This document shows positions 1,794 through 19,526 of a stretch of 37,967 nucleotides of DNA, in pieces. How positions within the stretch are numbered: position 1 is the stretch's first letter; each line of letters opens with the position of its first letter. The stretch is from Clostridia bacterium (lineage in GTDB: Bacteria > Bacillota > Clostridia > DUPQ01). The notes below the pieces were generated by a model. It searched no databases. It saw nothing but the letters and a program-made list of their open reading frames with translations, and was not told the DNA's origin. Made by a program: the position numbers and the translations under genes. The stretch covers positions 1 through 37,967 of the forward strand of contig JAUUZE010000003.1 in NCBI GenBank assembly GCA_030590175.1, read 5' to 3'.

Positions 1794-2034
1794 TATTATC
1801 GAAATAGCTGTTAGTGTTTTTCTAGTATTATTTGCACTTGTAGCAGTATTTTCTAAAAACCTTATAAATAGTATTATTTTTCTATCAATCATGAGTATGT
1901 TGGCTGTTGTTGCTTTTGCATTATTTAGAGCACCTGATGTTGCGATTACTGAAGCAGTTATCGGTTCTGGTTTAATAACCTTCATTTTTATTATTACCAT
2001 AAAAACTGCGAAGAAAGCAGGTAAAGAGAAATGA
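1780..2034 (+). CDS. MbhD-like (DUF4040) hydrogenase/antiporter subunit
   Basis: NLINSIIFLSIMSMLAVVAFALFRAPDVAITEAVIGSGLITFIFI matches the MbhD/MnhA C-terminal region. Start moved to 1780 on the basis of the AGGAGG RBS. Confidence 0.82.
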   Translation: MQIVNIIEIAVSVFLVLFALVAVFSKNLINSIIFLSIMSMLAVVAFALFRAPDVAITEAVIGSGLITFIFIITIKTAKKAGKEK

Positions 2035-2774
2035 AAAAAATATTTATTGGAATCTTTGTAATTGCTTTTAGCGTAGTATTTTTACTAGCTATTTCAAATA
2101 GTGTTGATTTGTTTACGTATAATGATTCTTTATCAAGTGATAGTGTGTCAAATGGTTATATCAATAAAAACGTAACAAAAAATCAAAGTGAAGTTATTTT
2201 TAATGAAACTACTGATGCAGAAACAGGTTCTGCAAACATTGTAACTAGTATAATAGTAAATTATCGTTCTTTTGATACTTTAGGAGAGGTTACAGTTCTG
2301 TTTCTTTCTGCTATTGGAGTATCACTATTATTTGGTTCAACAGGAAAATTAGCTGAGAGGAAAAAAAGTGGTTTTATTCTACGAACAGCTGCTAGAATTA
2401 TTTTTCCAATGTTATTAGTAACAGGAACATATTTGTTTACTCATGGACATTTAACACCAGGTGGAGGTTTCCCAGGTGGTGCCATGATTGCAGCATCCTT
2501 TTTATTACTTTATTTAGCTGATGAAAAATTTGTTACAGCTATTGAGAAAATTAAACTAGTAGAAGGTAGTGCTGGTACACTTTATGTTCTTATTGGAATA
2601 ACAGGATTAGTAACTGGAGGATATTTCTTAGCAAACTTCATACCAACTGGAACAGTTGGTCAGTTAATTAGTTCAGGAATTATTCCTTTAATATACGTAT
2701 TAATTGGATTAAAGGTAGGCGCTGAAATTACTTCAGTTGTTAGCCGTTATTTACAAGAGGAGGTAACTTCATGA
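2031..2774 (+). CDS. MbhE+MnhB fusion (MbxF-like) subunit
   Basis: N-terminal NYRSFDTLGEVTVLFLSAIGVSLL (MbhE) followed by MnhB signature THGHLTPGGGFPGGAMIAASFLLLYLA. Confidence 0.87.
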   Translation: MKKIFIGIFVIAFSVVFLLAISNSVDLFTYNDSLSSDSVSNGYINKNVTKNQSEVIFNETTDAETGSANIVTSIIVNYRSFDTLGEVTVLFLSAIGVSLLFGSTGKLAERKKSGFILRTAARIIFPMLLVTGTYLFTHGHLTPGGGFPGGAMIAASFLLLYLADEKFVTAIEKIKLVEGSAGTLYVLIGITGLVTGGYFLANFIPTGTVGQLISSGIIPLIYVLIGLKVGAEITSVVSRYLQEEVTS

Positions 2775-3115
2775 TTAGAGTAGCCTCATTACTATTATTA
2801 ATGATTGGATTGTATGGATTATTATCTACTAGAAATGTTATTAAAATGATTATTTCTATTAATATCATGGAATTAGGTGTAAATATCTTTATTGTCTCCA
2901 TTGGTTTTGTTACAAATGGTGTTGCACCAATTTTAACTAGTCAGGTCAATTCATCACTTAGTAATTTTGTAGATCCTTTACCACAAGCATTAGTATTAAC
3001 ATCTATTGTTATTGGTTTAGGGATAACAGCATTAGGGTTAGCATTTGCTAGAAAGCTATACAAAAAGTATGGCACCTATGATTTAGCAAAGATAGGAGGT
3101 ATGAAAGATGAATAA
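2771..3115 (+). CDS. Na+/H+ antiporter subunit C / NuoK-like (MbhG/MbxG-like)
   Basis: LYGLLSTRNVIKMIISINIMELGVNIFIV...DPLPQALVLTSIVIGLGITALGLA, a MnhC signature. Confidence 0.92.
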   Translation: MIRVASLLLLMIGLYGLLSTRNVIKMIISINIMELGVNIFIVSIGFVTNGVAPILTSQVNSSLSNFVDPLPQALVLTSIVIGLGITALGLAFARKLYKKYGTYDLAKIGGMKDE

Positions 3116-4544
3116 TCCTGTATTATTAATTGTCATACCGTTATTATTAGCATTTTTATCTGTAATTATTAAAAAAGCAGGTAAATGGCTATTATTAGTT
3201 GGTTTACTTTTCAACACAGCATTGGCATTCTTTATTACAACGGGTGAAACTATTATTGGTGGATTTGCTCCTCCATATGGAATAAATCTTGTTGTCGATC
3301 AATTTACTTTAGTAGGAGTTATCTTAATAAACACATTAATGCTCATTACAATTGTTGTGTCATTTGATTTAGTGGGTAAATATTCCATTGTTTTATTAAC
3401 AGCATTAGCAGGTATTAATGGTATGCTTTTGACAGGTGACTTATTTAATCTGTTTGTCTTTATGGAAATTACAGTTATTGCAGCATATATTTTAAGTGCT
3501 CAAGCTAAAAAGTATCACCACACAATAACCTATTTGGTAATTGGTTCAGTTGGTTCAGTTTTATACTTGCTAGGTATTATATTATTGTATAACTTAACAG
3601 GTAGTTTAAATATGGCTGATGTAGCAGCAAAATTACCTCTATTAACTACTAAAGAACTTTTAGTTCCAGTCTTATTGATTTTCATTGGGATTGGTGTTGA
3701 AGTTAAATTAATGCCTGTAAGTGGATGGGTTAAAGGAGTTTATTCAAATGCAAATAGACTTATTGCTCCATTATTCGCATCAGTAATTGCAGGAACTGCT
3801 CTATTTGTTTTTGGTAAATTATTCGTAAGCGTCTTACCAGTTAGTGATACTTTAACATTATTAATGTTAATTATGTCAGTTATGACTTTTGTCTTTGGTG
3901 AGTTTGCAGCATTTAACCAGAAAAGAGTAAAAAACATTCTACTTTATTCAAGTATTGGACAAGCTGGTTTAGTTACTGCTTTGTTTATATCAGGTTTAGT
4001 ATATGCAGCTGTGATTTTACTAATTAGTAATGTTATTTCTAAATTAATTATGTTTACCATTGCAGGTGCTTTTACTGAAAAATATGAAACTGATGACTAT
4101 GAGTCATTAAACGGTGTATTTGTTCATAATAAATTTACTGGGATAGCATTTACAATTGCAGCTTTATCTATGGCAGGTATTCCACTATTAATTGGTTTCT
4201 ATGCTAAGCTAAATATCCTTATTGGATTTTTCCAAGCGCAGAACTATGTTCTTCCAGCAATCATTTTACTTATGGCTATAGTTGAAGGGGCATATATTAT
4301 TAAGTTATTACTAGCTCTTTGGGCACCTGGAAAAGAAGGACAAGTTTCAGAAAAATCATTTGCAGTAGAGAAAAAACAATTATTATCAGTTAAAAATACA
4401 ATAATCTGTTTAATAGTTGCCTTAGTTATTATTGCAGGTGGAGTATTAATAGATATAACAGAAAAAGTTGTAACAGATGGACAACCACTATTAGGTGATC
4501 AATCACCATCATTTACAATATCTCAAAGTAAAGGAGGGGAATAA
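3108..4544 (+). CDS. Antiporter-like subunit (MrpD/NuoN type; MbxH-like)
   Basis: Multi-TM protein with DLFNLFVFMEITVIAAYILSA (TM5 Glu) and VEVKLMP (TM7 Lys) motifs. Confidence 0.88.
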   Translation: MNNPVLLIVIPLLLAFLSVIIKKAGKWLLLVGLLFNTALAFFITTGETIIGGFAPPYGINLVVDQFTLVGVILINTLMLITIVVSFDLVGKYSIVLLTALAGINGMLLTGDLFNLFVFMEITVIAAYILSAQAKKYHHTITYLVIGSVGSVLYLLGIILLYNLTGSLNMADVAAKLPLLTTKELLVPVLLIFIGIGVEVKLMPVSGWVKGVYSNANRLIAPLFASVIAGTALFVFGKLFVSVLPVSDTLTLLMLIMSVMTFVFGEFAAFNQKRVKNILLYSSIGQAGLVTALFISGLVYAAVILLISNVISKLIMFTIAGAFTEKYETDDYESLNGVFVHNKFTGIAFTIAALSMAGIPLLIGFYAKLNILIGFFQAQNYVLPAIILLMAIVEGAYIIKLLLALWAPGKEGQVSEKSFAVEKKQLLSVKNTIICLIVALVIIAGGVLIDITEKVVTDGQPLLGDQSPSFTISQSKGGE

Positions 4545-6367
4545 TGACTTTAATTACTGTATTAATCACCCTGCTTACCTTAGCAGCAGTTACATATTTA
4601 TTATCACTTGTTAATAGCAAATTAGGAGCTTACTTTACTATTGTAACTTCACTAGCTACGATTGTTATGCTATTTTTAATAAAAGATAGTATAGGTCAAT
4701 CTTATAGCTTGTCGTTTTTCACTTTTAAATTAACAACTGTTGGATGGTATTTTTCCATGGTTATGGTGACAGTATATTTCACAACAGCTTTTCTAAATCC
4801 ATTTTGGATAAAAAAAATGATTTATCCTGCTGCATATAACTTATTCTTTTTAGTTTCATTAATTGGAACAATTGGAATGTTTTTTGCCAGAGATTTCATT
4901 ACTTTATTCATTTGTTGGGAAACAGTGGTATGGACATCTACTTTCATTATACAGATGGGAAAATCTAGAAAATCATCTTATGTATACTATGTAGTTAGTG
5001 CAATTGGTTCAATGGTAACACTTTTTGCAATGATGTTAGTTTATCAAGTTTCTGGAACATTAGAAATTTCAACAGCATTTAGTGCGCTTTCTGGACAACC
5101 AGTATTAGCTTTAATTGTATTCTTTACATTTATATTAGCTGGACTTAGTAAAATTGGTATATTCCCATTTCATGTATGGTTACCAATGGCACATGGAAGT
5201 GCTCCACATACCTTTTCACCGGTATTATCAGGTGGACTAGTAAAAATGGGAGCATTTATCGCTTATCTAAGTGTTACAGCATTTGCAGCTTATGAAGTTT
5301 TTGCTAATACATTCACTATTATGGGAATACCAGCACCTTTATACATAATTATGGTGCTTGGTGCAATTTCAATTGTTGTGGGAACAGTGATGGCCATTAG
5401 GCAAGATGATGCTAAAAAGTTATTAGCATATTCCTCTGTAGCAAATGGAGGATATATATTAATTGGAATTTTATTATATGATCAAATAGCTTTTGCAGGT
5501 GGAATGCTTCATTTAATTTCCCATGCATTAGCTTCAGCTACAGCTTTTATTACAATTGCCATAGTGGCATATCGTACTGGAACAACAAAAATGTCAGAAT
5601 TAGGTGGCATGATTCATAGAATGCCAGTAACTTATACTGTTTATTTAATTGCAATTATATCCATGGCAGGAATACCTCCAATGGGTGGATTTGTTTCTAA
5701 ATGGTTAATATTACAAGGACTTGCAGATCGTGGGTTATTATTCCTAGCGGCAGCTGCTTTCTTTGGTTCAATTGGTTCATTTATGTATGTGTTTAGACCA
5801 CTTAGTGCTGTATTCTTAGGTCAATTAGCTCCAAAATATGAAAAAATAAAAGAAGCTAATATAATGATGCAAATTCCAATGTACTTATTAACTATAGCAA
5901 CATTATTAGTTGGAGTATTCCCAAATGTTGTATTACGTGTCATAGCTGATATTCAACTTGAAGCTGGAATACAAGAAATAGTATTAGTTGGAAACACAAT
6001 TGTAGTATCAAATGGTGTATTAGACGCTTTAAGAGTATTTATTGTATTCGGATATGGTTTCTTAATTGCTTTAGTAATATTCATCTTAAGGAGAAAGAGC
6101 AGAAGGGTAACTTTAATGGATACCTATACTTCAGCTGAGTTTATTCATACACCAGAGTTATTACATTATTCAAGTAATTTTTATGCTCCTTTTGAGCGAT
6201 TAACAAAAAAACCTTATCCAGTACTTAACTTATATGAAAAAGTATCAATTAAGATAAAAGAGATTGGGCATATGGCAGAGAGCCTATTTTCAAGTTCTAA
6301 ACCGGCAATTACCATATTCTGGATTATCATTGTGTTTGCAATATTTTTCTTAGGAGGTGTTCTATAA
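4544..6367 (+). CDS. Second antiporter-like subunit (MrpA/NuoL type; MbxH'-like)
   Basis: LFICWETVVWTSTFII, GLSKIGIFPFHVWLPMAHGSAPHTFSPVLSGGLVKMG, proton-conducting transporter family. Confidence 0.9.
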   Translation: MTLITVLITLLTLAAVTYLLSLVNSKLGAYFTIVTSLATIVMLFLIKDSIGQSYSLSFFTFKLTTVGWYFSMVMVTVYFTTAFLNPFWIKKMIYPAAYNLFFLVSLIGTIGMFFARDFITLFICWETVVWTSTFIIQMGKSRKSSYVYYVVSAIGSMVTLFAMMLVYQVSGTLEISTAFSALSGQPVLALIVFFTFILAGLSKIGIFPFHVWLPMAHGSAPHTFSPVLSGGLVKMGAFIAYLSVTAFAAYEVFANTFTIMGIPAPLYIIMVLGAISIVVGTVMAIRQDDAKKLLAYSSVANGGYILIGILLYDQIAFAGGMLHLISHALASATAFITIAIVAYRTGTTKMSELGGMIHRMPVTYTVYLIAIISMAGIPPMGGFVSKWLILQGLADRGLLFLAAAAFFGSIGSFMYVFRPLSAVFLGQLAPKYEKIKEANIMMQIPMYLLTIATLLVGVFPNVVLRVIADIQLEAGIQEIVLVGNTIVVSNGVLDALRVFIVFGYGFLIALVIFILRRKSRRVTLMDTYTSAEFIHTPELLHYSSNFYAPFERLTKKPYPVLNLYEKVSIKIKEIGHMAESLFSSSKPAITIFWIIIVFAIFFLGGVL

Positions 6368-7287
6368 TGACTGTGATGAATTTTGTTTATGGCTTTATTG
6401 TCTTATTGGCAGCATTTATTTTTCAGACAGCTTTAACAGGTGTTAATAGAAAAGTAACTGCACGTATACAAAAGAGATATGGACCTAGATGGTATCAACA
6501 GTTTTTAGATATCTTCAAAGCGCTACGTAAAGGTTCAATTACTCATGGATGGGTATTTGACTTTGGTGTAATAATGGCACTTGGAGGAATTATGGCAACG
6601 GTTATTTTCATTCCTGTTGCTGGATTTGAAGCATTCCCAAATATGGATAATGTATTTGTAATTTCTTATCTACTAGCTGTTGGAATGCTAGGAATGGCTA
6701 TGAGTGCAGCAGGTTCTGGTAACCCTTGGGCAAGTATAGGTGTATCTAGAGCACTAACCAATATGGTTGCTTATGATGTTCCATTAATGATTGTAATCTT
6801 TACATTAATATTTGCCTTTGATACAGCCTCTGTATCAGAAATTGCCGCTATGCAACAAGGAATGGGTGTTCTAGGTTGGAATGCCGTTAGAATGCCTTTA
6901 GGAGGCATTGTAGCCTTTATAGCATTGTTTGGTATGTTGGGTAAAAAACCCTTTGACTCTTTCATTGCTCCTGCTGAAATTGCTTCAGGACCAATGGTAG
7001 AATATGGTGGAAAACATTTAGGATTTATGTTCATTTTACATGAACTAATGACATTTATTGAAGTATCATTAATTTTAAGTTTATTCTTTGGTGGTGGAAG
7101 TTCAATTTTAGTATATGCCATCAAATATGCAATATTATATACTCTGGTCAATATAATATCTCAGGTTATGCCTAGATTTAAAATTGATCAAGCTGTTAAA
7201 TTTTTCTACAGAGTTCCGTTAGTTTTCGCAATTATTCAGGGCTTAGTAGTCATCTTCTTAGGATGGGGGGTATCTGTATGGTTTTAG
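6367..7287 (+). CDS. NuoH-like membrane anchor (MbhM/MbxM-like)
   Basis: NRKVTARIQKRYGPRWYQQFLDIFKALRKGS...GSGNPWASIGVSRALTNMVAYDVPL...PFDSFIAPAEIASGPMVEYGGKHLGFMFI, complex I ND1/HycD family. Confidence 0.93.
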   Translation: MTVMNFVYGFIVLLAAFIFQTALTGVNRKVTARIQKRYGPRWYQQFLDIFKALRKGSITHGWVFDFGVIMALGGIMATVIFIPVAGFEAFPNMDNVFVISYLLAVGMLGMAMSAAGSGNPWASIGVSRALTNMVAYDVPLMIVIFTLIFAFDTASVSEIAAMQQGMGVLGWNAVRMPLGGIVAFIALFGMLGKKPFDSFIAPAEIASGPMVEYGGKHLGFMFILHELMTFIEVSLILSLFFGGGSSILVYAIKYAILYTLVNIISQVMPRFKIDQAVKFFYRVPLVFAIIQGLVVIFLGWGVSVWF

Positions 7288-7829
7288 AAAATCAAGATAA
7301 CAGAAACTTATGGGAAAAAATCGGTGATTTTTTCAGTGCCAACTCAATTTGGATGAAATGGTATTGTACTGGTTGTGGAGCAATTGAATTGCCTCCAACA
7401 ATGACATCACGATTTGATATGGAACGTTTAGGAATGGGGCCAATGGCTACACCTAGACAAGCAGATGTACTGCTTATTACAGGTTACTTAAGTAGCAAAA
7501 CACTAAGAAGGGTTATCTACTCTTATGAGCAGATGCAAGATCCTAAATATATTGTAGCTTTTGGTTCATGTACAATCAATGGAGGAATCTACTATGATTC
7601 CTATGCAACTATTAATCAGTTAGATAAATATATACCTGTTGATTTGTATATTGCAGGATGTATGCCACGTCCAGAAGGAATTATGAATGCTTTTGCTGAT
7701 TTAATTACCATGATAAAAAAAGGGCAAGCCAATGGATGGCGCCATTACCAAGAAAATTATGAATGGTATAAGCAAAATCAACTAGACTCATTAAAGGAGG
7801 TAATTATACATGATGAATTCCATGAATAA
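7278..7829 (+). CDS. NuoB-like small subunit (MbhJ/MbxJ-like), one [4Fe-4S]
   Basis: WYCTGCGAIELPPTMTSRFDMERLGMGPMATPRQADVLLITG...AFGSCTINGG...YIAGCMPRPE: four conserved Cys. Start set to ATG 7278 after GGGGGG RBS. Confidence 0.92.
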   Translation: MVLENQDNRNLWEKIGDFFSANSIWMKWYCTGCGAIELPPTMTSRFDMERLGMGPMATPRQADVLLITGYLSSKTLRRVIYSYEQMQDPKYIVAFGSCTINGGIYYDSYATINQLDKYIPVDLYIAGCMPRPEGIMNAFADLITMIKKGQANGWRHYQENYEWYKQNQLDSLKEVIIHDEFHE

Positions 7830-8328
7830 TATTATCAAACAAATTGATGATGTCTTAACAATTACAAATAGTGAAATTATTACCAATAGACAGTTTGCTA
7901 TTGATATAAATAGTGGCGATGTTCATCAGTCATTAGCATATTTAAAATCAATTGGATTTACTCAATTAAGTATTCTTACTTGTATTGATTTGATTGCTAA
8001 TAACGAGTTCCAATTAATCTACATTCTTAATAACTGGGAACTAGGATTGTTTGTTATAGTTAGAACCATAATACCTAGAGACAATCCAGCATTTGTTACA
8101 ATAATAAATATTTTTCCAGGTGCAAAGTATTATGAGCGAGAAGTACATGAGTTCTTTGGAGTGACCTTTGAAGGAAATGATTCCTATTCTAAACCATTAC
8201 TACTAGAAATTTGGGATGATATACCTCCACTTAGAAAAGATTTTGATCCCCAAGTATATTCAGATAGTAAGTTTCCAAAGCGTGATTTAGATAAAATATA
8301 TCGCTCTAAAATAGGAGGTGTTGACTAA
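7810..8328 (+). CDS. NuoC-like subunit (MbhK/MbxK-like)
   Basis: NPAFVTIINIFPGAKYYEREVHEFFGVTFEGND...PPLRKDFDP, complex I 30-kDa signature. Confidence 0.9.
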   Translation: MMNSMNNIIKQIDDVLTITNSEIITNRQFAIDINSGDVHQSLAYLKSIGFTQLSILTCIDLIANNEFQLIYILNNWELGLFVIVRTIIPRDNPAFVTIINIFPGAKYYEREVHEFFGVTFEGNDSYSKPLLLEIWDDIPPLRKDFDPQVYSDSKFPKRDLDKIYRSKIGGVD

Positions 8329-9438
8329 ATGAAAGAAGTAAAACTGTTTTTAGGTCCTCAGCATCCTGGAATGCATGGAAACTATAGTGTTCATATGTAT
8401 GTTGATGGAGATATAATAAAAAAAGCACGTCCTACACCTGGGTTTTTACACCGTGGTTTTGAAAAACTTATGGAGAGAAGACTTTGGATGGGTAATTTAG
8501 CTTTAATTCCTAGAATTTGTGTTGTGGAACCAGATATTAATGAAATGGTTTATGCACAAGGAATTGAAACCCTAGCTAATGTAGAAGTTCCTGAAAAAGC
8601 ACATTGGATTAGAATGTTAATTTTAGAAATGGCTCGTTTAGCTATTCATATTATGGGGTTAGGAGGCATTGGTGGACCTACTGGAATGTACACAATCACT
8701 TATTGGGCTATTGCACAGCGTGATTTGATTTTAGATTTATTTGAAGAAATAACTGGAGCTAGAGTTTATCATATGTATATTGTACCAGGTGGTGTTAGAA
8801 AGCAATTACCAGTTGGGATTTTAGATAAAGTTAGTAAGTTATTAGACGAATTAGATGTTAAAATTCCAGAGTATAAAGAATTAGCACTAAAACATCCTAT
8901 TATTCATAAACGTATTAAAGATAATATTATGTTACCAGCTGATGTTGTATGGGAACTAGGTGTAACTGGTATTGGAATGAGATCTGCAATAGGAAAAGAA
9001 TATGACCTTAGAAAAGTTCAACCATATGCTAGATATGATCAAGTTGAATTTGATGTACCAATTGCAAATTATTCAGATGGGTTAACTAGAATGAATACTA
9101 AGTATAAGGAAATTTTCCAAAGTATTAGAATTCTTAGGCAGGTTATTGAAAAAATGCCAAAAGAAGGCGAAGTTAGAACTAGAGTTTCTACTGGAAGTGC
9201 ACTGCGTTGGACAGTTCCAGCTGGAATGGTCTATTCTGCTATTGAATCAAGCAGAGGAGAATATGGATATTTCATTGTATCAGATGGAAAAGAAATGCCT
9301 TATCGTATAGCTGTTAGAGGCGCGTCTTTCCCACAGGGGCTATTAGGTATTGAAAAATATTTAGTAGGTCATAGAATTGATGATGCATCCCTTTGGATGG
9401 ATACAATGGGTGTTTGCTCACCAGAGATAGATAGGTAG
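8329..9438 (+). CDS. NuoD-like catalytic subunit with CxxE/CxxE in place of NiFe CxxC motifs (MbxL-like)
   Basis: FLGPQHPGMHGNYSVHMYVDGD...GFLHRGFEKLMERR...RICVVEPDIN...GGVRKQLP...MDTMGVCSPEIDR. Confidence 0.92.
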   Translation: MKEVKLFLGPQHPGMHGNYSVHMYVDGDIIKKARPTPGFLHRGFEKLMERRLWMGNLALIPRICVVEPDINEMVYAQGIETLANVEVPEKAHWIRMLILEMARLAIHIMGLGGIGGPTGMYTITYWAIAQRDLILDLFEEITGARVYHMYIVPGGVRKQLPVGILDKVSKLLDELDVKIPEYKELALKHPIIHKRIKDNIMLPADVVWELGVTGIGMRSAIGKEYDLRKVQPYARYDQVEFDVPIANYSDGLTRMNTKYKEIFQSIRILRQVIEKMPKEGEVRTRVSTGSALRWTVPAGMVYSAIESSRGEYGYFIVSDGKEMPYRIAVRGASFPQGLLGIEKYLVGHRIDDASLWMDTMGVCSPEIDR

Positions 9439-9446
9439 GTGATTAT

Positions 9447-11270
9447 ATGAATGAAAGAAAAAGTTTTTTTGCACCAGTAAAAGCATGGAAATATCTACTA
9501 AGAAGACCAGTTACAATACTTAAAAAAGATATTTTTGAGAATCCTAGAGAAGGTTCAGATATGTATCGTGGTTTTCATCAGAACGACTGGGATAAATGTG
9601 TTGGTTGTGGTACCTGTGAGTCTATATGTCCAACTAATGCTATTAGTATGGTTGAAATTGCATCACTAGAAATAGAAGATGGCAAAAAAAATGAGCGACC
9701 TGGTTTTGATTACGGTCGATGTTCTTTTTGTGCTCTTTGTGTTGATATATGTGTATCAGACTCATTAAAAATGTCAAAAGAATATTTACATTTATCAAAG
9801 GATGCTGAAAGTTTTTACTTTATACCAGATATTAATGGTATTCACAATAATAAAGCAAAACAAGGTTATGTTCGCGATGAAACATCTGAATTGCTTGATT
9901 TAGTGCGAGTGAAAATGGAACATGAAGATGTTAGTAGAAAAAATTCTTTCATAGAAATCGTAAAAGGTTATTCAATGGAAATGGCATTAGCTGAAAGTGC
10001 TAGATGTGTAGAATGTGGTATTTGCACTGATACATGTCCTGCTCACATGAATATACCTGAATACATTAGAAGTATTTATGAAAATGATTTAAAGGGTGCC
10101 ATAACTCATCTATATAAAACTAATCCACTATCAAACGTATGTGGACGAATTTGTACCCACTTATGTGAAGGCGCTTGTTCGTTAGCAATCAGAGGTGAAG
10201 CAATTTCAATAAGATGGTTAAAACGATATATTGTTGATAACACACCTATGGAAGATTATGAAGAGGCTGTATTATCATTTGTTACTGAACCTGTTAATGG
10301 AAAAGTAGGAATTGTAGGCTCTGGACCATCTGGTTTATCAGCAGCTTATTACTTACGTACATTAGGATATGAAGTTGATGTATATGAACAACGTGCAATA
10401 CCAGGTGGTGTTATTAGCTATGGTGGACCTGAATATAGATTACCAGAAGCTAGTGTACAAAAAGATATTTCTATGATTGAAAAAACTGGTGTTAACTTTA
10501 TTACAAATACTAAAGTTGGAACAGATATTACTCTTGCTCAACTAGAAGAAAAGTATGATGCTGTATTTTTAGGAATTGGATTTTCTTTATCTAGAAAATT
10601 AAATATTCCTGGAAACGATCATGGTGATGTGGAATATGCAATTCCATTTTTAGCGCAAACAAGAGACTATTTAAGAGATGTATCTAAAATGCCTGATATT
10701 CATGAAAAAGTTGTTGTTATTGGTGGTGGTAATGTTGCATTTGATGTTGCAAGAACATTATTAAGACTACAGATTGAAAAATATGGTAAAGCTGATGTTA
10801 AAATGGCATCATTAGAACATCGAGATATCTTACCTGCTGACTTAGAAGAGTTAGAAGAAGGGGAAGAAGAAGGAATTATTGGTAGCTTTGGGTATGGACC
10901 AGAAGAGATTGTTATTAAAAATAATAAAATTGTTGGTTTAAAAGTAAACAAAGTATTATCAATCTTTGATGAAGATAATAATTTTAACCCAAGTTATGAC
11001 AAATCTGATAGTCATGTTATAGAGGCAACACAGGTATATATTTCAACAGGACAAATGCCAGAATATGACATGATTACCGATGAAATAAAAGAAAAAATGG
11101 AAATTGTTAGAGGTAAAATAATTACTGCTGAAAATGGCCAAATTGTTAATGTTCCTTGGCTATTTGCAGGTGGTGATATTGTTAGAGGCCCTGATATTAT
11201 TAATGGGGTAGCCAATGGCCATGATTCGGCAGTTGGAATTGATAAGTATTTACAATCTAAAAAGAAATAA
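9447..11270 (+). CDS. NuoI-like 2x[4Fe-4S] ferredoxin fused to GltD/NfnB-type FAD/NAD(P) oxidoreductase
   Basis: CVGCGTCESICP and CSFCALCVDIC, then CVECGICTDTCPAHMNIPEYI...CGRICTHLCEGAC (DPYD-type Fe-S), GIVGSGPSGLSAAYYLRTLGYEVDVYE (FAD), VVVIGGGNVAFDVARTLLRL (NAD(P)). Confidence 0.93.
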   Translation: MNERKSFFAPVKAWKYLLRRPVTILKKDIFENPREGSDMYRGFHQNDWDKCVGCGTCESICPTNAISMVEIASLEIEDGKKNERPGFDYGRCSFCALCVDICVSDSLKMSKEYLHLSKDAESFYFIPDINGIHNNKAKQGYVRDETSELLDLVRVKMEHEDVSRKNSFIEIVKGYSMEMALAESARCVECGICTDTCPAHMNIPEYIRSIYENDLKGAITHLYKTNPLSNVCGRICTHLCEGACSLAIRGEAISIRWLKRYIVDNTPMEDYEEAVLSFVTEPVNGKVGIVGSGPSGLSAAYYLRTLGYEVDVYEQRAIPGGVISYGGPEYRLPEASVQKDISMIEKTGVNFITNTKVGTDITLAQLEEKYDAVFLGIGFSLSRKLNIPGNDHGDVEYAIPFLAQTRDYLRDVSKMPDIHEKVVVIGGGNVAFDVARTLLRLQIEKYGKADVKMASLEHRDILPADLEELEEGEEEGIIGSFGYGPEEIVIKNNKIVGLKVNKVLSIFDEDNNFNPSYDKSDSHVIEATQVYISTGQMPEYDMITDEIKEKMEIVRGKIITAENGQIVNVPWLFAGGDIVRGPDIINGVANGHDSAVGIDKYLQSKKK

Positions 11271-11274
11271 AAAT

Positions 11275-11310
11275 AACAAAACCTCGATATTATACGAGGT
11301 TTTGTTTTGT
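11275..11310 (+). terminator. Rho-independent terminator of the Mbx-like operon
   Basis: Perfect 12-bp stem AACAAAACCTCG / CGAGGTTTTGTT, loop ATATTATA, followed by a T-rich tail. Confidence 0.9.
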
Positions 11311-11311
11311 G

Positions 11312-11340
11312 TTTACATATATATTGAAAAGCAATATAAT
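11312..11340 (+). promoter_or_regulatory. Sigma70-type promoter
   Basis: TTTACA, 17 nt, TATAAT immediately after the terminator. Confidence 0.75.
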
Positions 11341-11363
11341 CAAATTATATGAAAGAGAGTAAT

Positions 11364-12248
11364 ATGCATACTATAAAAGCTTATCAACATACATTGAATA
11401 AAACAATCAATATACAAAACGCATTAGTTTCTTGGCAATCATATAGTGATGAGATGTATAAAATTTATAAACCCTATCTTTTAAATAAAAAAGTAATAAT
11501 AATTGGAGCAGGACATATAACAGATTTTCCAATGGAAAAAATTCTTAATCAAGTTACAAGCATTTCGCTATATGATATTGATAAAGAGGCCATGTCGTTA
11601 GGGTTAAAAGCACAAAATATTAGTAGTAATAAGGTAACCTTTATAACCAAAGATATTACATGTCTAGATGATGTTGGTTTTTATAAACAAGTAATCTTGT
11701 TATTACAAGCTAAAGATTTAGAAGGCATAAAGAGGTTTTTTAGAATAGTAAGCCATATGAACATTGATGTTTCAATCGATTCAAAATATGATTTACTTAT
11801 TATTTCTCCGTTTTATACCCAATTATTATTACCACAATACTTAGCTTATCTTAATGAATTTATTGAAGATACCCTACATAATGAGTACATAGAACCCTTA
11901 TTATCATTATTAAGTTTATTTATTGATAAAATTAATAATCAATTACTTTTTTGTCTAAATGAAAGTGGTAAAATAATTGTAATAAGTGATTACTTAGAAT
12001 TTATGCTAGATGATTCTAAGTATATTGCATTAAAAAATAAAAATAATCAATCTTCTATTGATAAATATTATGAAGATTACTTGATGAAGTATGGACAAGG
12101 GCTTGGTCCGTATGGACTAGAGGACTTAGTTGAAAAGACAAGATTAATTCATCAATCATGGCACTGGTGGCCATTTAATGGAGAAAAAGAACTTTTAGTG
12201 AAAATAGGTATTATGGGAAAAATGAAAGTAGAAGAAAATGACATATAG
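11364..12248 (+). CDS. Uncharacterised protein with methyltransferase-like Rossmann motif
   Basis: KKVIIIGAGHITDFPMEKIL...ISLYDIDKEAMSLG resembles SAM-MTase motifs I/II. Start moved from 11349 to ATG 11364 because 11349 sits about 9 nt after the -10. Confidence 0.55.
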   Translation: MHTIKAYQHTLNKTINIQNALVSWQSYSDEMYKIYKPYLLNKKVIIIGAGHITDFPMEKILNQVTSISLYDIDKEAMSLGLKAQNISSNKVTFITKDITCLDDVGFYKQVILLLQAKDLEGIKRFFRIVSHMNIDVSIDSKYDLLIISPFYTQLLLPQYLAYLNEFIEDTLHNEYIEPLLSLLSLFIDKINNQLLFCLNESGKIIVISDYLEFMLDDSKYIALKNKNNQSSIDKYYEDYLMKYGQGLGPYGLEDLVEKTRLIHQSWHWWPFNGEKELLVKIGIMGKMKVEENDI

Positions 12249-13455
12249 TGCTATTAGAAAACTATCAGGAACTTATGATGGTAAAAAGGTTACGTTGCAA
12301 TTTTATCGTTCACAGCGAGCTAGTAAATCAAATAAACCTATTGTGTTTACTATTTTTCGTCAGATTTGTAATGATTTTTTATTTGGACGTGATTATGAAG
12401 AATTTGCATATTCACTAGACATTAAAGATGCAACAGTAATTTATGAAGGAATATTACAAGTTGATGTTGATATTAGTTTTTATACGTATGAAGATAAAGA
12501 TGTAAAAGAAGGGATTACCTATGCATACTATATAGGGTCACTTTTAAATGATATTGTATATGGACCCCTATTAATTAAACCGCGAAATCAGAAATTATGG
12601 TTACCATATGAAACAATAAAAAGCGAATTATCACAATTGGCTTGTGATTATCCTGATTTAGTTAAAATATCAAACCATGGTCATTCAGTTTTAGGAAGAG
12701 ATATTGACAGTATTACAATTGGAAATCGTCAACATATTAAGCTTGGGTTTGTAGGACTTATTCATGCTGGTGAGTCAGGACCAGAGTTAATGCTTTATAC
12801 CATAAAAAAATTATTAAAGTCGCAATCTTCATTACTTAAAAAAATTGGATTATCTTTTTTAGTAAATGCTAATCCTGATCAACGAGAAAAACAAGTTAAA
12901 GGTGTACCATGGTATTTGAGAAAGAATGCAAATGGTGTGGATTTAAATAGAAATTTTGATGCACAATTTGATATAGTAGAATTAGGGTATGGCTTTAGAA
13001 CAGATGTTTTAACATCTCCTACCTATAGAGGGAAAAATCCTGAATCAGAACCTGAAACTAAAGCACTAATTGATTTTATTGAATTTGCTATGCCACAAGT
13101 TGTATTTGTTTTTCACAGTCTATCAAGTATATGTACTGATAGCTTTTTATTGTCTAAATATTCTAAAGATGATACGTTATATATTAATAAATGTATGAAG
13201 TACCTTAAACCTTATACAAAAGGGTTTGGTGTTAAAAAGAAACCTTCTATTTACTTTGGTACTAGTTATGGTTCGTTACCTCATTATCTATATAAAAAGT
13301 ATGGTATTCCTGCCTTTGATATGGAATTAGGAGAGGTAGATGATGAAACAAAACAGATGGTTATTCATGATAATGTAACTAATCAATTAATGGAATATTA
13401 TCAAGAGAGACACTATCAAGGAATAAGCGAGGTAATAAAATCATGTATATCGTAG
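12238..13455 (+). CDS. M14-family zinc carboxypeptidase-like protein
   Basis: HGHSVLGRDIDSITIG...IHAGESGPELMLY (HxxE), NANGVDLNRNFD, FDMELGE near the C-terminus. No obvious signal peptide. Confidence 0.82.
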   Translation: MTYSAIRKLSGTYDGKKVTLQFYRSQRASKSNKPIVFTIFRQICNDFLFGRDYEEFAYSLDIKDATVIYEGILQVDVDISFYTYEDKDVKEGITYAYYIGSLLNDIVYGPLLIKPRNQKLWLPYETIKSELSQLACDYPDLVKISNHGHSVLGRDIDSITIGNRQHIKLGFVGLIHAGESGPELMLYTIKKLLKSQSSLLKKIGLSFLVNANPDQREKQVKGVPWYLRKNANGVDLNRNFDAQFDIVELGYGFRTDVLTSPTYRGKNPESEPETKALIDFIEFAMPQVVFVFHSLSSICTDSFLLSKYSKDDTLYINKCMKYLKPYTKGFGVKKKPSIYFGTSYGSLPHYLYKKYGIPAFDMELGEVDDETKQMVIHDNVTNQLMEYYQERHYQGISEVIKSCIS

Positions 13456-14363
13456 ATGGTCATTGTGATACTTTGTTAGCATTACAAGAAAAAAAAGAGA
13501 CACTTAAAGAGAATTCATTACAAATTAGTCTAAATAGAATAAAAAAAACTAGTAGTGACTATTTGCAATTTTATGCAGTTTTTGTATCTCCTAGCATTAA
13601 AGGTTTAGAAGCAATTAATCAATATAAGAATATGGTTAGTATTTTACAAAATGAATGTGAAAAAAATAATATACCTAGGATATTAACAAAAAGTGATTTA
13701 AATTTTAAAGGACATGGGGCATTATTATCAGTTGAGGGTCTATATTTCCTAGATGAAAAACAAATAACTTTAGATGACTTATATAAGGATGGAGTTAGGT
13801 GTTTATCTATGACATGGAATGGTAGTAACTCATATGCTGGAGGAGTGTTAGGTAAATTATCTCATGGGCTAACTAAAAAAGGGGCGAACCTAGTTAAAAA
13901 AGCTGAAAAATTAGGAATTATTCTTGATGTATCGCACTTAGATGATAGAAGTTTTTATGATTTAAGTGAAATATCTTCTAACCCTTTTGTAGCTACTCAC
14001 TCAAATGCGCGTGCAATATGTGAAAATAGCAGAAATTTAACTGATGACATGTTAGTTACACTAAAAAAACATGGTGGTTTAGCTGGTATAAATATGTATG
14101 GACGATTTTTAAAAGAACAAGGTGATACTTCAGTAGTTGATGTAATTAGACATATTGAACATATTTGTACAGTGGCATCTGTAGATACAGTAGGTTTTGG
14201 GACTGACTTTGATGGGATACCAAGGGAACACTCAGCAATTGATAGTCCTATTGCATTAATTGCTGTTTTAGAGCAATTAGCGATACTTAATTATACACAA
14301 GAGCAAATTGATAAAATCGCTGGTGGTAACTATTTACGTGTCTTAACAAGAGTGCTTAAATAA
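13443..14363 (+). CDS. Membrane dipeptidase-like (M19, renal dipeptidase family)
   Basis: VDGHCDTL, LDVSHLDDRSFYDL, ATHSNARAICENSRNLTDDML, GFGTDFDGIP. Confidence 0.92.
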   Translation: MYIVDGHCDTLLALQEKKETLKENSLQISLNRIKKTSSDYLQFYAVFVSPSIKGLEAINQYKNMVSILQNECEKNNIPRILTKSDLNFKGHGALLSVEGLYFLDEKQITLDDLYKDGVRCLSMTWNGSNSYAGGVLGKLSHGLTKKGANLVKKAEKLGIILDVSHLDDRSFYDLSEISSNPFVATHSNARAICENSRNLTDDMLVTLKKHGGLAGINMYGRFLKEQGDTSVVDVIRHIEHICTVASVDTVGFGTDFDGIPREHSAIDSPIALIAVLEQLAILNYTQEQIDKIAGGNYLRVLTRVLK

Positions 14364-14371
14364 TAAAATTA

Positions 14372-14380
14372 TGGTACAAT
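14372..14380 (+). promoter_or_regulatory. Extended -10 element upstream of nadE
   Basis: TGG-TACAAT about 15 nt upstream of the nadE start. Confidence 0.35.
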
Positions 14381-14394
14381 ACCCATGAGGTATT

Positions 14395-16314
14395 ATGATG
14401 AATTATGGATATGTCAAAGTAGGGACCTACTCACCAGAAATGAAAATTGCAAATTGTCAGTACAATAGTGCTGTCATAATAAAAGCTGTAAAAGAATATG
14501 ATGGACAACTATCATATTTGCTTTTTCCAGAACTTAGTGTAACAGGGTATTCTTGTGGAGATTTGTTCTTTTCACAGCATTTATTAGATCAAGCGCAATT
14601 ACAATTAGAAAATATTTCTAAAAGCACCAAATATAGCAACATGGTTATTATATTTGGAATGCCAATACGTCACAAAAATCAATTATTTAATGTGGCAATT
14701 GTTATGCAATCAGGAAAAATACTAGGTGTAGTTCCAAAATCATATATACCAAACTATGCTGAGTTTTACGAAGAACGATGGTTTTCATCAGGAAAAGATC
14801 TTAATGAAAGTATCTCACTACTTGGCAATGATGTTCCTTTTTCGCCTAATACAATATTTAAAGCAATAGGTAATGAGAAAGCTTCTTTTGCCATTGAAAT
14901 ATGTGAAGATTTATGGGCAGGTATTCCACCTAGTTCATATCATGTTAAAAAAGGTGCTCATATGATTTTTAACTTGTCTGCTAGTAATGAACTAGTTGGT
15001 AAGGTAGATTATAGAAAGCAATTAGTTATAGGGCAGTCAGCTAGTGGGATATGTGGCTATATTTATTGTTCAGCGGGTCCTAATGAATCATCTACTGATT
15101 TGGTATATGGTGGTCACACATTAATAGCTGAAAATGGTAGATTACTTGCTAAAGGGAAACGATTCTCATTTGAATCAACAATAACTATAGGTGAGATTGA
15201 TTTATCACTATTAGCCCATGATCGTATGAAAAATACAGTATATATGGAAGATGATATTTCACTATCTTATCAATATGCTTCATATAATTTAGAAGAGTTA
15301 ACTATTACAAAACTAATAAGACAAATAAATAAAACACCTTTTGTACCATCAGATGAAAGAAAACTACATCAAAGATGTGAAGAGATATTTGCAATACAAG
15401 CAACTGGATTGGCCAGAAGAATTAGCCACATTGGTTGTAAAAAAGTAGTTTTGGCCATTTCAGGAGGTTTAGATTCCACCTTAGCCTTATTAGTAACAAA
15501 TAAAGCATTTGAAAAACTTGGGTTGGATAAAAAAGGTATTATTGCAATTACTATGCCAGGTTTTGGTACTACTAATAGGACATATGATAATGCTGTGGCA
15601 TTAATTAAAGAAGTGGGAGCTACTTTTAGAGAAATTGACATTAAAAAAGCGTGTTTATCTCATTTTGAAGATATAGGACATGACCCATCAATTCATGATA
15701 CTACATATGAAAATGTACAAGCTAGAGAACGTTATCAAATCGCCATGGATATCGCTAATAAAGAAAATGGTATTGTGGTAGGTACTGGTGATTTAAGTGA
15801 ATTAGCACTTGGATGGTGTACATATAATGGAGATCATATGTCTATGTATAACGTCAATTGTTCTATACCAAAAACACTTGTTAAATATTTAATTGATTAT
15901 GTTAAAAATTTCGAAGTTGATAAACATGCAAGTAATATTTTATCTAGTATAATGGACACTCCTATATCACCTGAACTATTACCACCAGATAATGATGGAA
16001 ATATATCTCAAAAAACAGAGGATATTTTAGGACCTTATGAAGTCCATGATTTTTACTTATATAACATGATAAGAAAAGGATTTAGCCCTAAAAAATTATT
16101 ATTCTTAGGAAAACAAGCTTTCTTAGAAGTGTATCATGAAGATGATTTGAAGAAGTGGCTAATAATTTTCATAAAACGATTTTTTACTCATCAATTTAAA
16201 CGTTCTTGTATTCCTGATGGTCCAAAAGTTGGTTCTATTAATTTATCTCCAAGAGGAGATTGGAGAATGCCATCTGACGTCAGTGCAAAATCTTGGCTTG
16301 ATGAATTGGAGTAA
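14395..16314 (+). CDS. nadE: Glutamine-dependent NAD(+) synthase
   Basis: N-terminal nitrilase-type amidase (LLFPELSVTGYSCGDLF, ICEDLW) and C-terminal synthetase (LAISGGLDSTLALLV, GTGDLSELALGWCTYNGDHMSMYNVN). Confidence 0.95.
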   Translation: MMNYGYVKVGTYSPEMKIANCQYNSAVIIKAVKEYDGQLSYLLFPELSVTGYSCGDLFFSQHLLDQAQLQLENISKSTKYSNMVIIFGMPIRHKNQLFNVAIVMQSGKILGVVPKSYIPNYAEFYEERWFSSGKDLNESISLLGNDVPFSPNTIFKAIGNEKASFAIEICEDLWAGIPPSSYHVKKGAHMIFNLSASNELVGKVDYRKQLVIGQSASGICGYIYCSAGPNESSTDLVYGGHTLIAENGRLLAKGKRFSFESTITIGEIDLSLLAHDRMKNTVYMEDDISLSYQYASYNLEELTITKLIRQINKTPFVPSDERKLHQRCEEIFAIQATGLARRISHIGCKKVVLAISGGLDSTLALLVTNKAFEKLGLDKKGIIAITMPGFGTTNRTYDNAVALIKEVGATFREIDIKKACLSHFEDIGHDPSIHDTTYENVQARERYQIAMDIANKENGIVVGTGDLSELALGWCTYNGDHMSMYNVNCSIPKTLVKYLIDYVKNFEVDKHASNILSSIMDTPISPELLPPDNDGNISQKTEDILGPYEVHDFYLYNMIRKGFSPKKLLFLGKQAFLEVYHEDDLKKWLIIFIKRFFTHQFKRSCIPDGPKVGSINLSPRGDWRMPSDVSAKSWLDELE

Positions 16315-16318
16315 TTAA

Positions 16319-17308
16319 ATGGATATAATAACTATCAGATTAAGTGATAATAAACTGATTATGTTAGATCAAAGAAAATTACCGTTAGAAATTTCATATT
16401 ACATTGCTAAAACTAAAGAAGAAGTTTTTTATGCTATTAAAGAAATGGTTGTAAGAGGTGCACCGCTAATTGGTGTAACCGCAGCTTATGGTATGTATAT
16501 TTCATATTTAAATGGTGAAAACTTAGAAGAAGTTGCAGATTATCTAGCTAAAGCAAGACCAACTGCTGTTAATCTTACATGGGCAATTGATAAAATGATG
16601 AAGGCTCATTATGAAGAACGAGGTCTTTTAGAACAAGCAAAAGCAATACATCAAGAAGATGTGGATACGAATTTTTCTATTGGTAATCATTTAATAAAAT
16701 TATTAGGGAAGAAGCGTAATATTTTAACACATTGTAATGCAGGTATATTAGCTACAACAAAATATGGGACAGCTACTTCACCATTTTATATTGGAAAAGA
16801 TTTAGGTATAAATTACAAAGTTTATGCAGATGAAACTAGGCCACGATTACAAGGTGCTAGCTTAACAGCTTTTGAATTAATGGAATCAGGAATTGATGTA
16901 ACTGTTATTACTGATAATATGGCAGCCTATCTAATGAGCAAAGGTTTAATTGAAGCTGTTATTACAGGTTGTGATAGAGTAGCTGCAAATGGTGATGTAG
17001 CAAATAAAATTGGTACATTAAATGTATCTATTATTGCTAAATATTATAATATTCCCATGTATATTGCTGCACCTTCATCAACTATTGATATGTCTCTAAA
17101 AAGTGGTGAGTTAATACCTATTGAAGAGCGAGAGTCTTGGGAAGTTACTAGTCGTTTTGGTAAACAAATGACACCTAATGAGACTAAAGTCCTAAATCCT
17201 GCATTTGATATAACACCAGCTTGTAATATAACCGCTATTGTTACTGAAAAAGGGATAATCTATCCACCATATAGTAAAAACCTAAAGGAGCAATATGAAC
17301 AAAGTTGA
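16319..17308 (+). CDS. mtnA: S-methyl-5-thioribose-1-phosphate isomerase-like
   Basis: MVVRGAPLIGVTAAYG, RPTAVNLTWAID, THCNAGILATTKYGTA, ADETRPRLQGA, VITGCDRVAANGDVANKIGT. Confidence 0.93.
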   Translation: MDIITIRLSDNKLIMLDQRKLPLEISYYIAKTKEEVFYAIKEMVVRGAPLIGVTAAYGMYISYLNGENLEEVADYLAKARPTAVNLTWAIDKMMKAHYEERGLLEQAKAIHQEDVDTNFSIGNHLIKLLGKKRNILTHCNAGILATTKYGTATSPFYIGKDLGINYKVYADETRPRLQGASLTAFELMESGIDVTVITDNMAAYLMSKGLIEAVITGCDRVAANGDVANKIGTLNVSIIAKYYNIPMYIAAPSSTIDMSLKSGELIPIEERESWEVTSRFGKQMTPNETKVLNPAFDITPACNITAIVTEKGIIYPPYSKNLKEQYEQS

Positions 17309-18038
17309 TATAAATTGTGATATGGGTGAAGGTGGATTATTTGATGAATCCATTATGAAATATATTAAAAGTGCAAATATTGCCTGTGGATATCATGCAG
17401 GTAATGAAGAAATAATGAAAAAAACAATTTATATGGCAAAGGAACAAAATGTTATTGTAGGCGCACACCCTGGGTATGATGATTTAGAAAATTTTGGTCG
17501 TAAAGAATTAAATTATGAATACGATTTAGTTATTGCCATTGTGCTTCAACAATTACATACATTTTATAAAATAGCCTGTGCAGAAGGTGCAAGTATGGCT
17601 TATGTGAAATTACATGGAGCCTTATACAATAGAGTAGCAGATGATGATAAATTAGCAGAAAAATTGCTTTACTATATAACCTTAGAATATCCTGGAATTT
17701 CTTTTTTATCATTAGCGTTATCTCCAATGCAACGTGTTGCAGAGAAAATGGGGATTTCTTGTTATCATGAAGTATTTGCAGATCGTGCATATGAAAATGA
17801 TGGTACATTAGTTTCTAGAAGCAAAAAGGGCGCAATTATTACTGATGTAGATGATGTGAAAAAGCGAGTATATCAGATGGTATCAGAGCAAACAGTAAAT
17901 AGTATTAACTTAAAAGACATTCCAATTATTTGTCAATCAATATGTGTTCACGGTGACTCTTTACAAGCGCTATCTTTGTGTCAGGGTATTTATGAACATC
18001 TATCATTAAAAGGAGTAATTATTGAAAGTTACATGTGA
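17295..18038 (+). CDS. pxpA: 5-oxoprolinase subunit A (LamB/YcsF family)
   Basis: VDINCDMGEGG, SANIACGYHAGNEE, VGAHPGYDDLENFGRKEL, VKLHGALYN, CVHGDS. Confidence 0.95.
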   Translation: MNKVDINCDMGEGGLFDESIMKYIKSANIACGYHAGNEEIMKKTIYMAKEQNVIVGAHPGYDDLENFGRKELNYEYDLVIAIVLQQLHTFYKIACAEGASMAYVKLHGALYNRVADDDKLAEKLLYYITLEYPGISFLSLALSPMQRVAEKMGISCYHEVFADRAYENDGTLVSRSKKGAIITDVDDVKKRVYQMVSEQTVNSINLKDIPIICQSICVHGDSLQALSLCQGIYEHLSLKGVIIESYM

Positions 18039-18675
18039 ATATGCAAAGATGGGAAGTAATCATGTATTTGTGCGATTTTCTCATGTGATAGATAAATTAA
18101 TTAATCAACAAATTCGCCAGGTATATCAAACACTGATTACAAAACAACCACTAGGGTTTATTGAAGCATATTTTGCTTATGGCAGCTTAACTGTTCAATT
18201 TGATTTAACAATTACTACTTATAAAGCCATGAAAAAAGCTATTTCTCTTATTATTAGTGATACAACTATAACGAAAGTTACAAGTGGAAATGAAGTTATT
18301 ATTCCAGTTACTTATAATAACGAAACAGGACTTGATTTAGATTATGCAAGTGATTACTTAAAATTATCAAAAGATGAAATTATTGATATTCATAGCAGTG
18401 GCCAATATTTGGTATATATGATTGGTTTTTTACCTGGGTTTTGTTATTTAGGTGGGCTAGACAAAAGAATCCATATACCAAGAAAAAAGACACCGCGATT
18501 AATAGTACCAAAAGGAAGTGTGGGCATAGCAGCTTCACAAACGGGTGTATATCCTTTAGATAGTCCAGGAGGTTGGCAGATTATTGGTCGAACAAACCTA
18601 AAACTATATAAACCATATGACAAATCGCCATTCTTAATACTACCAGGTGACAAAGTGAGGTTTATTAAAAAATGA
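18022..18675 (+). CDS. pxpB: 5-oxoprolinase subunit B (KipI-like)
   Basis: YMIGFLPGFCYLGGLDKRIHIPRKKTPRLIVPKGSVGIAASQTGVYPLDSPGGWQIIGRT. TTG start with AAAGGAG RBS. Confidence 0.95.
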   Translation: MKVTCEYAKMGSNHVFVRFSHVIDKLINQQIRQVYQTLITKQPLGFIEAYFAYGSLTVQFDLTITTYKAMKKAISLIISDTTITKVTSGNEVIIPVTYNNETGLDLDYASDYLKLSKDEIIDIHSSGQYLVYMIGFLPGFCYLGGLDKRIHIPRKKTPRLIVPKGSVGIAASQTGVYPLDSPGGWQIIGRTNLKLYKPYDKSPFLILPGDKVRFIKK

Positions 18676-19526
18676 TAAGACAAGTATTTTTAATAAAGAA
18701 TCCAGGAATGTATACATTGATTCAAGATGGAGGGAGAATAGGTTTTCGTCACTATGGAGTACCTGTTTCTGGAGCCGTTGATAAAAAAGCGCTAAATCAA
18801 GCAAATTATCTAGTTTATAATTCAAAAGATTGCCCATGCCTTGAAATATTATCAACTGGTATTGAGTTATTAGCATTGGATGATTGTTATATTGCTTTTA
18901 CTGGGGCTTTAGCTACTATACTAGTTGATCAACAAGTTGTTAATTCCTTTCAAACTCTATTAATAAAAAGTGGACAAACTATTATAGTAAAAGCACTGAA
19001 AAGTGGTTTGAGAACATATTTAGGAGTACATGGGGGTTTTGTATCTGACATATTAATGGGTTCAGCTTCAGTGGATGAGCGAATTTTAATAGGAAGCCGC
19101 TTAAAAAGAGATGATATCTTAACAACCAATGAACCGCTTACTAATTTATCTATTCGTACCATTAAAAGACCAGTTTATGATAATCATTATAGAGTTATAA
19201 TAGGCCCTGATAAACATAAATTTTCACCAAAAGAAATTAAAAAATTCTTTAATAATTCATATAAAGTAACTGCTAAATTAAGTAGAATGGGAATCAATTT
19301 AAAAGGGAATAAAATTGAGCATATAGATGGAGCAGATGTTCTTAGCCACCCTGTGATATTTGGATCTATACAAATACTAGCAAATGGACAACCAATAATT
19401 TTATTAGCTGATGGGCAAACAACAGGTGGTTATGCAGTTATTGGTAATATATGTGATGATGATTTATATAAATTAGGTCAAGTAAAAACAGGTGATTTAA
19501 TAACATTCTCAAAAATAAAAGGATAA
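18672..19526 (+). CDS. pxpC: 5-oxoprolinase subunit C (KipA-like)
   Basis: NPGMYTLIQDGGRIGFRHYGVPVSGAVD...AYLGVHGGF-like...IIGPDKHKF...RMGINLKG. Confidence 0.95.
   Translation: MIRQVFLIKNPGMYTLIQDGGRIGFRHYGVPVSGAVDKKALNQANYLVYNSKDCPCLEILSTGIELLALDDCYIAFTGALATILVDQQVVNSFQTLLIKSGQTIIVKALKSGLRTYLGVHGGFVSDILMGSASVDERILIGSRLKRDDILTTNEPLTNLSIRTIKRPVYDNHYRVIIGPDKHKFSPKEIKKFFNNSYKVTAKLSRMGINLKGNKIEHIDGADVLSHPVIFGSIQILANGQPIILLADGQTTGGYAVIGNICDDDLYKLGQVKTGDLITFSKIKG

Follow-up and report, generated by a model that had tools for sequence, protein, structure and literature searches.

The last gene of a 13-gene operon in the window (the whole stretch of 37,967 nucleotides analyzed here) encodes a single 607-amino-acid protein in which a NuoI/MbsN-type iron-sulfur part is continuous with an NfnB/GltD-type flavoprotein. 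On balance, we consider it probable that this protein is a subunit of a pump of the MBS/MBX type, and that its flavin module would serve as a non-bifurcating port for NAD(H), replacing ferredoxin or the NuoEFG subunits.

The frame at 9447-11270 runs from an ATG start to a TAA stop and its translation contains no internal stops. Only 8 bases separate it from nuoD, which makes the fusion the final gene of a tight operon, and AGGTGA, which resembles a Shine-Dalgarno sequence, lies 5 bases upstream of the fusion ATG within the end of nuoD. Pfam assigned a Fer4 dicluster domain to residues 47-104, Fer4_20 (DPD domain II) to residues 165-266 and Pyr_redox_2 to residues 286-583. In the PDB, MbsN matched residues 3-118, and NfnL and Xfn matched residues 163-605. 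The original prediction that a NuoI-type part and a GltD/NfnB-type FAD/NAD(P) part lie on one 607-amino-acid chain is thus confirmed by the intact frame and by the Pfam and PDB matches, and all the motifs that it quoted were located in the translation. The protein has the following features:

9447-11270, + strand: fused NuoI/MbsN - NfnB/GltD-type protein, 607 aa (Pfam, NCBIfam and PDB matches)
9447-9881, + strand: NuoI/MbsN module, residues 1 to ~145; best solved match 6u8y_N (MbsN)
9597-9629, + strand: [4Fe-4S] motif CVGCGTCESIC, residues 51-61, followed by P; all cysteines invariant in 10 homologues
9720-9752, + strand: [4Fe-4S] motif CSFCALCVDIC, residues 92-102; every cysteine invariant
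9873-9941, + strand: fusion junction, residues ~143-165; invariant residues, purifying selection
9942-11267, + strand: NfnB/GltD-type module, residues ~166-607, with predicted sites for two [4Fe-4S] clusters, FAD and NAD(H) (Fer4_20, Pyr_redox_2, fold searches)
10005-10037, + strand: CVECGICTDTC, residues 187-197, followed by P; distal and proximal cluster cysteines, equivalent to NfnB C39, C42, C47 and C51 in the alignment to NfnL
10152-10178, + strand: C236, C240 and C244, equivalent to NfnB C90, C96 and C100
10221-10223, + strand: Lys259, predicted fourth ligand of the flavin-proximal cluster, in the column of NfnB Glu117 and StnC Lys170
10317-10337, + strand: FAD dinucleotide-binding motif GSGPSGL, residues 291-297
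10722-10757, + strand: NAD dinucleotide-binding motif GGGNVAFDVART, residues 426-437
10809-10817, + strand: S455-L456-E457, in place of the NADP 2'-phosphate motif YRR

Because the window genome is a draft (77% complete, 190 contigs), one may suspect that two adjoining genes were joined by the assembly or by a missed frameshift. The probability of such an artifact is negligible. Uninterrupted full-length homologues occur in G002, G003, G004, G006, G008, G244, G307 and G719, the last being a complete, single-contig genome of 3.1 Mb from the same class; a further copy, in G269, is cut off by a contig end. In all, ten loci from five genera carry the fusion, with identities to the window protein of 96% and 90% in two more species of the same genus, 72% in three species of the sister genus, 65% and 46% in two other families of the phylum and 58% in G719. 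About 21 residues are invariant between positions 123 and 174, a stretch that spans the junction (alignment of 10 homologues); those at the junction are R143, D144, S147, E148, L149, L150, D151, L152, R154, M157 and R164. Between the window and G003, pN is 0.011 in the NuoI part, 0.019 in the junction and 0.027 in the flavin part, and the corresponding pS values are 0.25, 0.41 and 0.33. All three parts are under purifying selection. The fusion is genuine because ten loci share it, with a conserved and selected junction, and Thermotoga maritima adds a full-length match to the same protein family.

This family, NF010590 (PRK13984, an equivalog named 'putative oxidoreductase'), aligns with residues 4-606 of the fusion over model positions 8-610/611 (E 1.7e-264). 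Among 14 named control genomes, T. maritima alone reached the curated cut-off of 946 bits, and none of the phylum and class genomes searched with the model scored at or over this value. The window protein shares the full-length domain order of the T. maritima protein, which belongs to a 13-gene MBX. Its score of 878.6 bits is under the cut-off, and this full-length match places it by sequence beside the family as a divergent sister, outside the curated membership. The statement that the two parts are not one chain in ordinary Mbh, Mbx or Nuo complexes therefore needs correction: the architecture, but not its function, was already in databases. The accessible parts of the MBX papers that we found treat MBX as a ferredoxin-linked homologue of MBS and make no mention of a flavin fusion, and no title retrieved under 'TM1217' concerns the fused protein; the search was not exhaustive and an earlier account is possible. 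What is new here is the reading of the fusion's chemistry, that is, the hypothesis of an NAD(H)-linked, non-bifurcating, quinone-free MBS variant, and not the architecture.

The twelve genes that precede the fusion are:

689-1207, + strand: MnhE (PF01899)
1204-1455, + strand: MnhF-like (sequence and operon position; order conserved)
1452-1793, + strand: MnhG (over cut-off)
1762-2034, + strand: DUF4040 / MbxD-like (NCBIfam search)
2031-2774, + strand: MbhE and MnhB in one protein (PF20501 and PF04039)
2771-3115, + strand: MnhC-like (sequence and operon position; order conserved in other operons)
3108-4544, + strand: antiporter-like subunit of the MnhD/NuoN type (Pfam, NCBIfam)
4544-6367, + strand: antiporter-like subunit of the NuoM/MbsH' type (NF006419 / PRK08668 over cut-off)
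6367-7287, + strand: NuoH/MbsM-like membrane anchor (NADHdh)
7263-7829, + strand: NuoB/MbsJ-like subunit with CTGC (C35, C38), C103 and C133 (MbsJ match)
7810-8328, + strand: NuoC-like subunit (Complex1_30kDa)
8329-9438, + strand: NuoD/MbsL-like subunit (site residues His16, Val65, Cys64 and Cys363)

The order mnhEFG-mbxD-mnhBCD-nuoMHBCD-fusion is identical in every locus whose contig reaches far enough. According to the parts of the sources consulted, MBX also comprises 13 genes in T. maritima (PMC9431562) and Thermoanaerobacter (PMC3608648). We sampled 398 genomes evenly across the phylum. The fusion was found in four of them, one being the window genome, and an MBX-type NuoB (E <= 1e-40) in precisely these four; NuoB was also not found in the relatives that lack the fusion (G001, G005, G007, G009 and G010). 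The apparent lack of NuoB in G003 arises because its contig (locus L025) begins inside nuoC. Thus, the fusion always sits in an operon with Mrp and NuoBCDH genes, a co-occurrence that the original prediction had left to be checked. None of the 13 genes is NuoE-, NuoF- or NuoG-like, and no NfnA-like partner was found in the operon.

The joining of MbhE to MnhB at 2031-2774 is a second fusion within the same operon. Just upstream, at 48-506, lies the C-terminal end of a valyl-tRNA synthetase (Val_tRNA-synt_C), as is also the case in locus L026. Downstream, at 11349-12248, an orphan gene encodes a 299-amino-acid protein with a Rossmann-like start (GAGxxxDF / YDID) and conserved GLGSYGL and W..WPF motifs; Pfam and PDB searches found no relative of it. 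In two families, loci with the fusion carry this orphan immediately after it (24-70% identity), so a link to the complex is possible. Further on, at 14395-19526, genes on the same strand resemble, by eye, a glutamine-dependent NAD+ synthetase, an MtnA-like isomerase and a PxpABC-like 5-oxoprolinase set.

MBX operons of the same 13-gene order with a stand-alone NuoI also exist (L081 in G719 and L090 in G491). In a tree of concatenated NuoD and NuoB (LG+G4, 12 taxa, complex I as outgroup, Thermotoga left out), the fused forms make up one clade (UFBoot 87) that is sister to these two unfused bacterial operons (92), and archaeal MBS falls outside. One fused clade with unfused sister operons suggests, with moderate support, that within this sample a functional MBX probably acquired the flavin module in a single event. 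The tail of the 162-amino-acid stand-alone NuoI in the second operon of G719 resembles the first part of the fusion linker (tblastn of residues 5-161 against L070/L065). In that operon (G719:C1:2537001-2556900, positions 1821-15672) the genes mnhE to nuoD and the NuoI gene are followed directly by rnfC, D, G, E and A, an MBX-Rnf supercluster; the unfused MBX of G491 has no adjoining rnf.

By sequence comparison, the core of the complex is of the type of archaeal MBS, the membrane-bound sulfane reductase, and not of the complex I or hydrogenase type. The nearest solved relative of NuoB is MbsJ (226 bits; the best chain of the complex I type scored 120), that of NuoD is the MBS subunit (284 vs 232 bits) and that of the NuoI half is again an MBS subunit (6u8y_N, 88 bits). 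The site residues were compared with those described for MBS (PMC7684303). NuoB lacks the tandem Cys-Cys of cluster N2 and instead has a CxxC, as CTGC, plus two further cysteines that match MbsJ C25/C28/C93/C123, while Cys64 and Cys363 of NuoD occupy the positions of MbsL C85/C385. This MBS-type cavity site is strictly conserved. The single Cys64 and Cys363 stand where a group 4 [NiFe]-hydrogenase has two CxxC pairs, and such a hydrogenase was rejected. The quinone Tyr (Nqo4 Tyr87) is replaced by Val65 and is absent from all forms. The His of the quinone headgroup (Nqo4 His38, here NuoD His16) is kept in 9 of the 10 fused and in both unfused bacterial forms; archaeal MBS has neither the His nor the Tyr.

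For the flavin module, Foldseek matched NfnL (5jca, E 1.5e-35), and a VIA comparison with 9bov_A gave Z 31.1 and rmsd 4.0 over 401 aligned residues; NfnL and StnC scored equally well, within Z 1. These searches span residues ~150-607 of an AF2 model built from ten sequences (mean pLDDT 63.9, with residues 1-175 under 50). The modeled fold is that of NfnL, StnC and GltD. Every NfnB cluster cysteine is retained in the fused proteins, C187, C190, C193 and C197 are invariant across the fused homologues, and CGRICTHLCEGAC is present at residues 232-244. Cys232 was considered as a family-specific cluster ligand and dropped, since 39 of 42 other GltD-type proteins carry it.

Two sites bear on the chemistry of the module. 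The column of NfnB Glu117 holds Lys in all 10 fused proteins, and an equal-length match (query 12-83 to StnC 104-175) sets K259 on StnC K170. In StnC, this lysine coordinates the cluster next to the non-bifurcating FAD; activity dropped severely when it was exchanged for Ala or Cys, and half remained with Arg (PMC10482914). YRR occurs in NfnL, Xfn, StnC and the two NfnABC chains; at its site, 9 of the 10 fused proteins have x-L-E (S-L-E in the window). In DsrL, kinetics show that replacement of YRR by triplets of the S/T-L..-E type goes with a preference for NAD(H), as in the NAD(H)-preferring DsrL-1 (PMC7596348). As an internal control, the same genome encodes a canonical NfnAB pair (L002, G000:C169, 663-2868) that keeps both YRR and Glu; it also has rnfC (C177). 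We thus regard NAD(H) as a well supported candidate for the nucleotide, and the predicted lack of bifurcation at the fused flavin as equally well supported. The expected dinucleotide motif is present, but S-L-E in place of YRR speaks against NADP(H), so the part of the original prediction that allowed either nucleotide narrows to a probable NAD(H) site. Among the 42 other GltD-type proteins, Lys occurs in 32 and C-L-E in 27, mostly very large ones, and the stand-alone NfnB-like ones have YRR and Glu. These features are therefore marks of a non-Nfn group and not of the fused family alone. The G719 fused protein (L070) has A-R-K, so the NAD(H) type need not hold for every member, and this one is possibly NADP(H)-type or of dual specificity.

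In the mechanism that we propose, the N-terminal MbsN/NuoI part would pass electrons to NuoB, and the C-terminal NfnB/StnC-type module would be the pyridine-nucleotide port, the role of NuoEFG in complex I or of docked ferredoxin in archaeal MBS. NADH would transfer hydride to FAD. Single electrons would then leave FAD through the proximal [4Fe-4S] cluster (three Cys and Lys259), the distal [4Fe-4S] cluster and the two NuoI-type clusters to the MBS-type NuoB cluster beside the NuoD/NuoH cavity. This cavity would be the site where a small acceptor is reduced, the likeliest being sulfane sulfur in the form of polysulfide or persulfide, and the cavity chemistry would power the MnhD/NuoM-type antiporter subunits. 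The ligands point to FAD and five [4Fe-4S] clusters, of which the flavin module and NuoI would hold two each and NuoB one. The suggestion of a direct wire from a quinone/NiFe-like cavity to a nucleotide-binding flavin is upheld in part: the cofactor set is such as this wire needs, but the cavity is of the MBS type.

Sulfane sulfur may be the acceptor, and electrons may flow from NADH toward it, although the reverse direction is possible. Electron transfer from NADH to S0 or polysulfide provides little energy, roughly 50-60 mV at standard conditions, which counts against this acceptor. We suggest it because the site is of the MBS type and because T. maritima mbxA responds to S0, being up 4.36-fold in the part of the study consulted (PMC9431562). 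That part also reports that T. maritima membrane fractions, when given NAD(P)H or reduced ferredoxin, did not produce H2S from S0, which again counts against it. As to direction, Rnf is present in 9 of the 10 fused genomes, so a second ferredoxin:NAD+ pump would be redundant, and MBX more likely acts downstream of NADH. We give somewhat less than an even chance to the full proposal of an energy-conserving NADH:sulfane-sulfur oxidoreductase (in reverse, thiol/sulfide:NAD+), with its flavin fused to NuoI, that would act downstream of Rnf in quinone-free anaerobes including Thermotoga. Three further points run against our preferred reading: the A-R-K triplet of G719, the quinone His that is kept here unlike in MBS, and the occurrence of x-L-E and Lys in large proteins that contain GltD but have another function.

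MBX has been labeled or proposed, for Pyrococcus, Thermoanaerobacter and Caldanaerobacter, as a ferredoxin:NAD(P) oxidoreductase (PMC3608648, PMC4596419, in the parts consulted), a label that also counts against our reading. An ion-pumping enzyme of this kind would oxidize ferredoxin, reduce NAD(P)+ at the fused flavin and pump through the membrane arm, and the predicted nucleotide-binding domain of the fused module would suit it. We nevertheless find this unlikely. If both substrates react at the peripheral arm, electrons may skip the NuoB/NuoD cavity, so that coupling is hard to see; moreover, Rnf already covers the reaction in the nine genomes mentioned, flavin-less MBX variants exist, and the MBS-type cavity site shows strict conservation. 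The NfnB fold of the module could also mean that the enzyme bifurcates or confurcates, splitting the electrons of NAD(P)H between ferredoxin and the MBX chain. This is very unlikely, given that the Glu ligand is replaced by Lys, as beside the non-bifurcating FAD of StnC, and that NfnA is missing from the operon, with the canonical NfnAB encoded separately elsewhere in the genome.

A variant of complex I that reduces quinone, with the fused flavin module standing in for NuoEFG, would agree with the NuoB/C/D/H/I homology and with the retained quinone-site His. We consider it extremely improbable. Known quinone pathways require a prenyltransferase of the UbiA family. UbiA was not found in the complete G719 genome nor in 8 of the 10 MBX-bearing genomes, with 14 of 14 controls positive. 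Together with the Val at the position of the quinone Tyr and the CxxC of NuoB, the missing UbiA makes quinone unlikely as the acceptor, and a quinone-type complex I was rejected on these grounds.

The NAD(H)-linked MBS variant that we favor combines features of several known systems. With the MBS of P. furiosus (6u8y) it shares the CTGC/C/C cysteines of NuoB, the NuoD equivalents of C85/C385, the Mrp-type membrane arm and the NuoI half. However, MbsN of P. furiosus is a stand-alone, ferredoxin-fed protein of 208 amino acids, whereas the window NuoI is fused to an FAD/NAD module and the complex keeps the quinone-site His. StnC of the Stn transhydrogenase (8oh5) likewise carries a GltD/NfnB-like module on a Nuo-type iron-sulfur protein, with a Lys ligand and a non-bifurcating FAD. 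In StnC the fusion is to NuoG, within the bifurcating, NADPH-linked StnABC (YRR), while in the window it is to NuoI, in a Mrp/Nuo-type membrane operon and with S-L-E; Pfam and NCBIfam found no NuoG-like domain on the 607-amino-acid chain. The C-terminal half has the same predicted fold and both [4Fe-4S] sites as NfnB (NfnL) but lacks its Glu ligand, YRR and NfnA. Respiratory complex I has the NuoB/C/D/H/I and antiporter-like core in common with the window operon, which is without NuoEFG, the tandem Cys-Cys and the quinone Tyr.

There is no agreement on what donates electrons to bacterial MBX and what accepts them: the gene set figures in papers as a ferredoxin:NAD(P) oxidoreductase, as a reductase of sulfur or as an NADH dehydrogenase that was mis-annotated. 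With its fused flavin, Lys ligand and NAD-type pocket, the protein makes the substrates of MBX directly testable in cultured T. maritima, and G719, with both a fused and an unfused operon, provides a natural comparison. Our analysis suggests that a pump once supplied by ferredoxin came to take its electrons from NADH instead. If true, this would be an independent route to NADH entry for a complex I-like pump, and would give quinone-less fermenting anaerobes a second ion-coupling site after Rnf.
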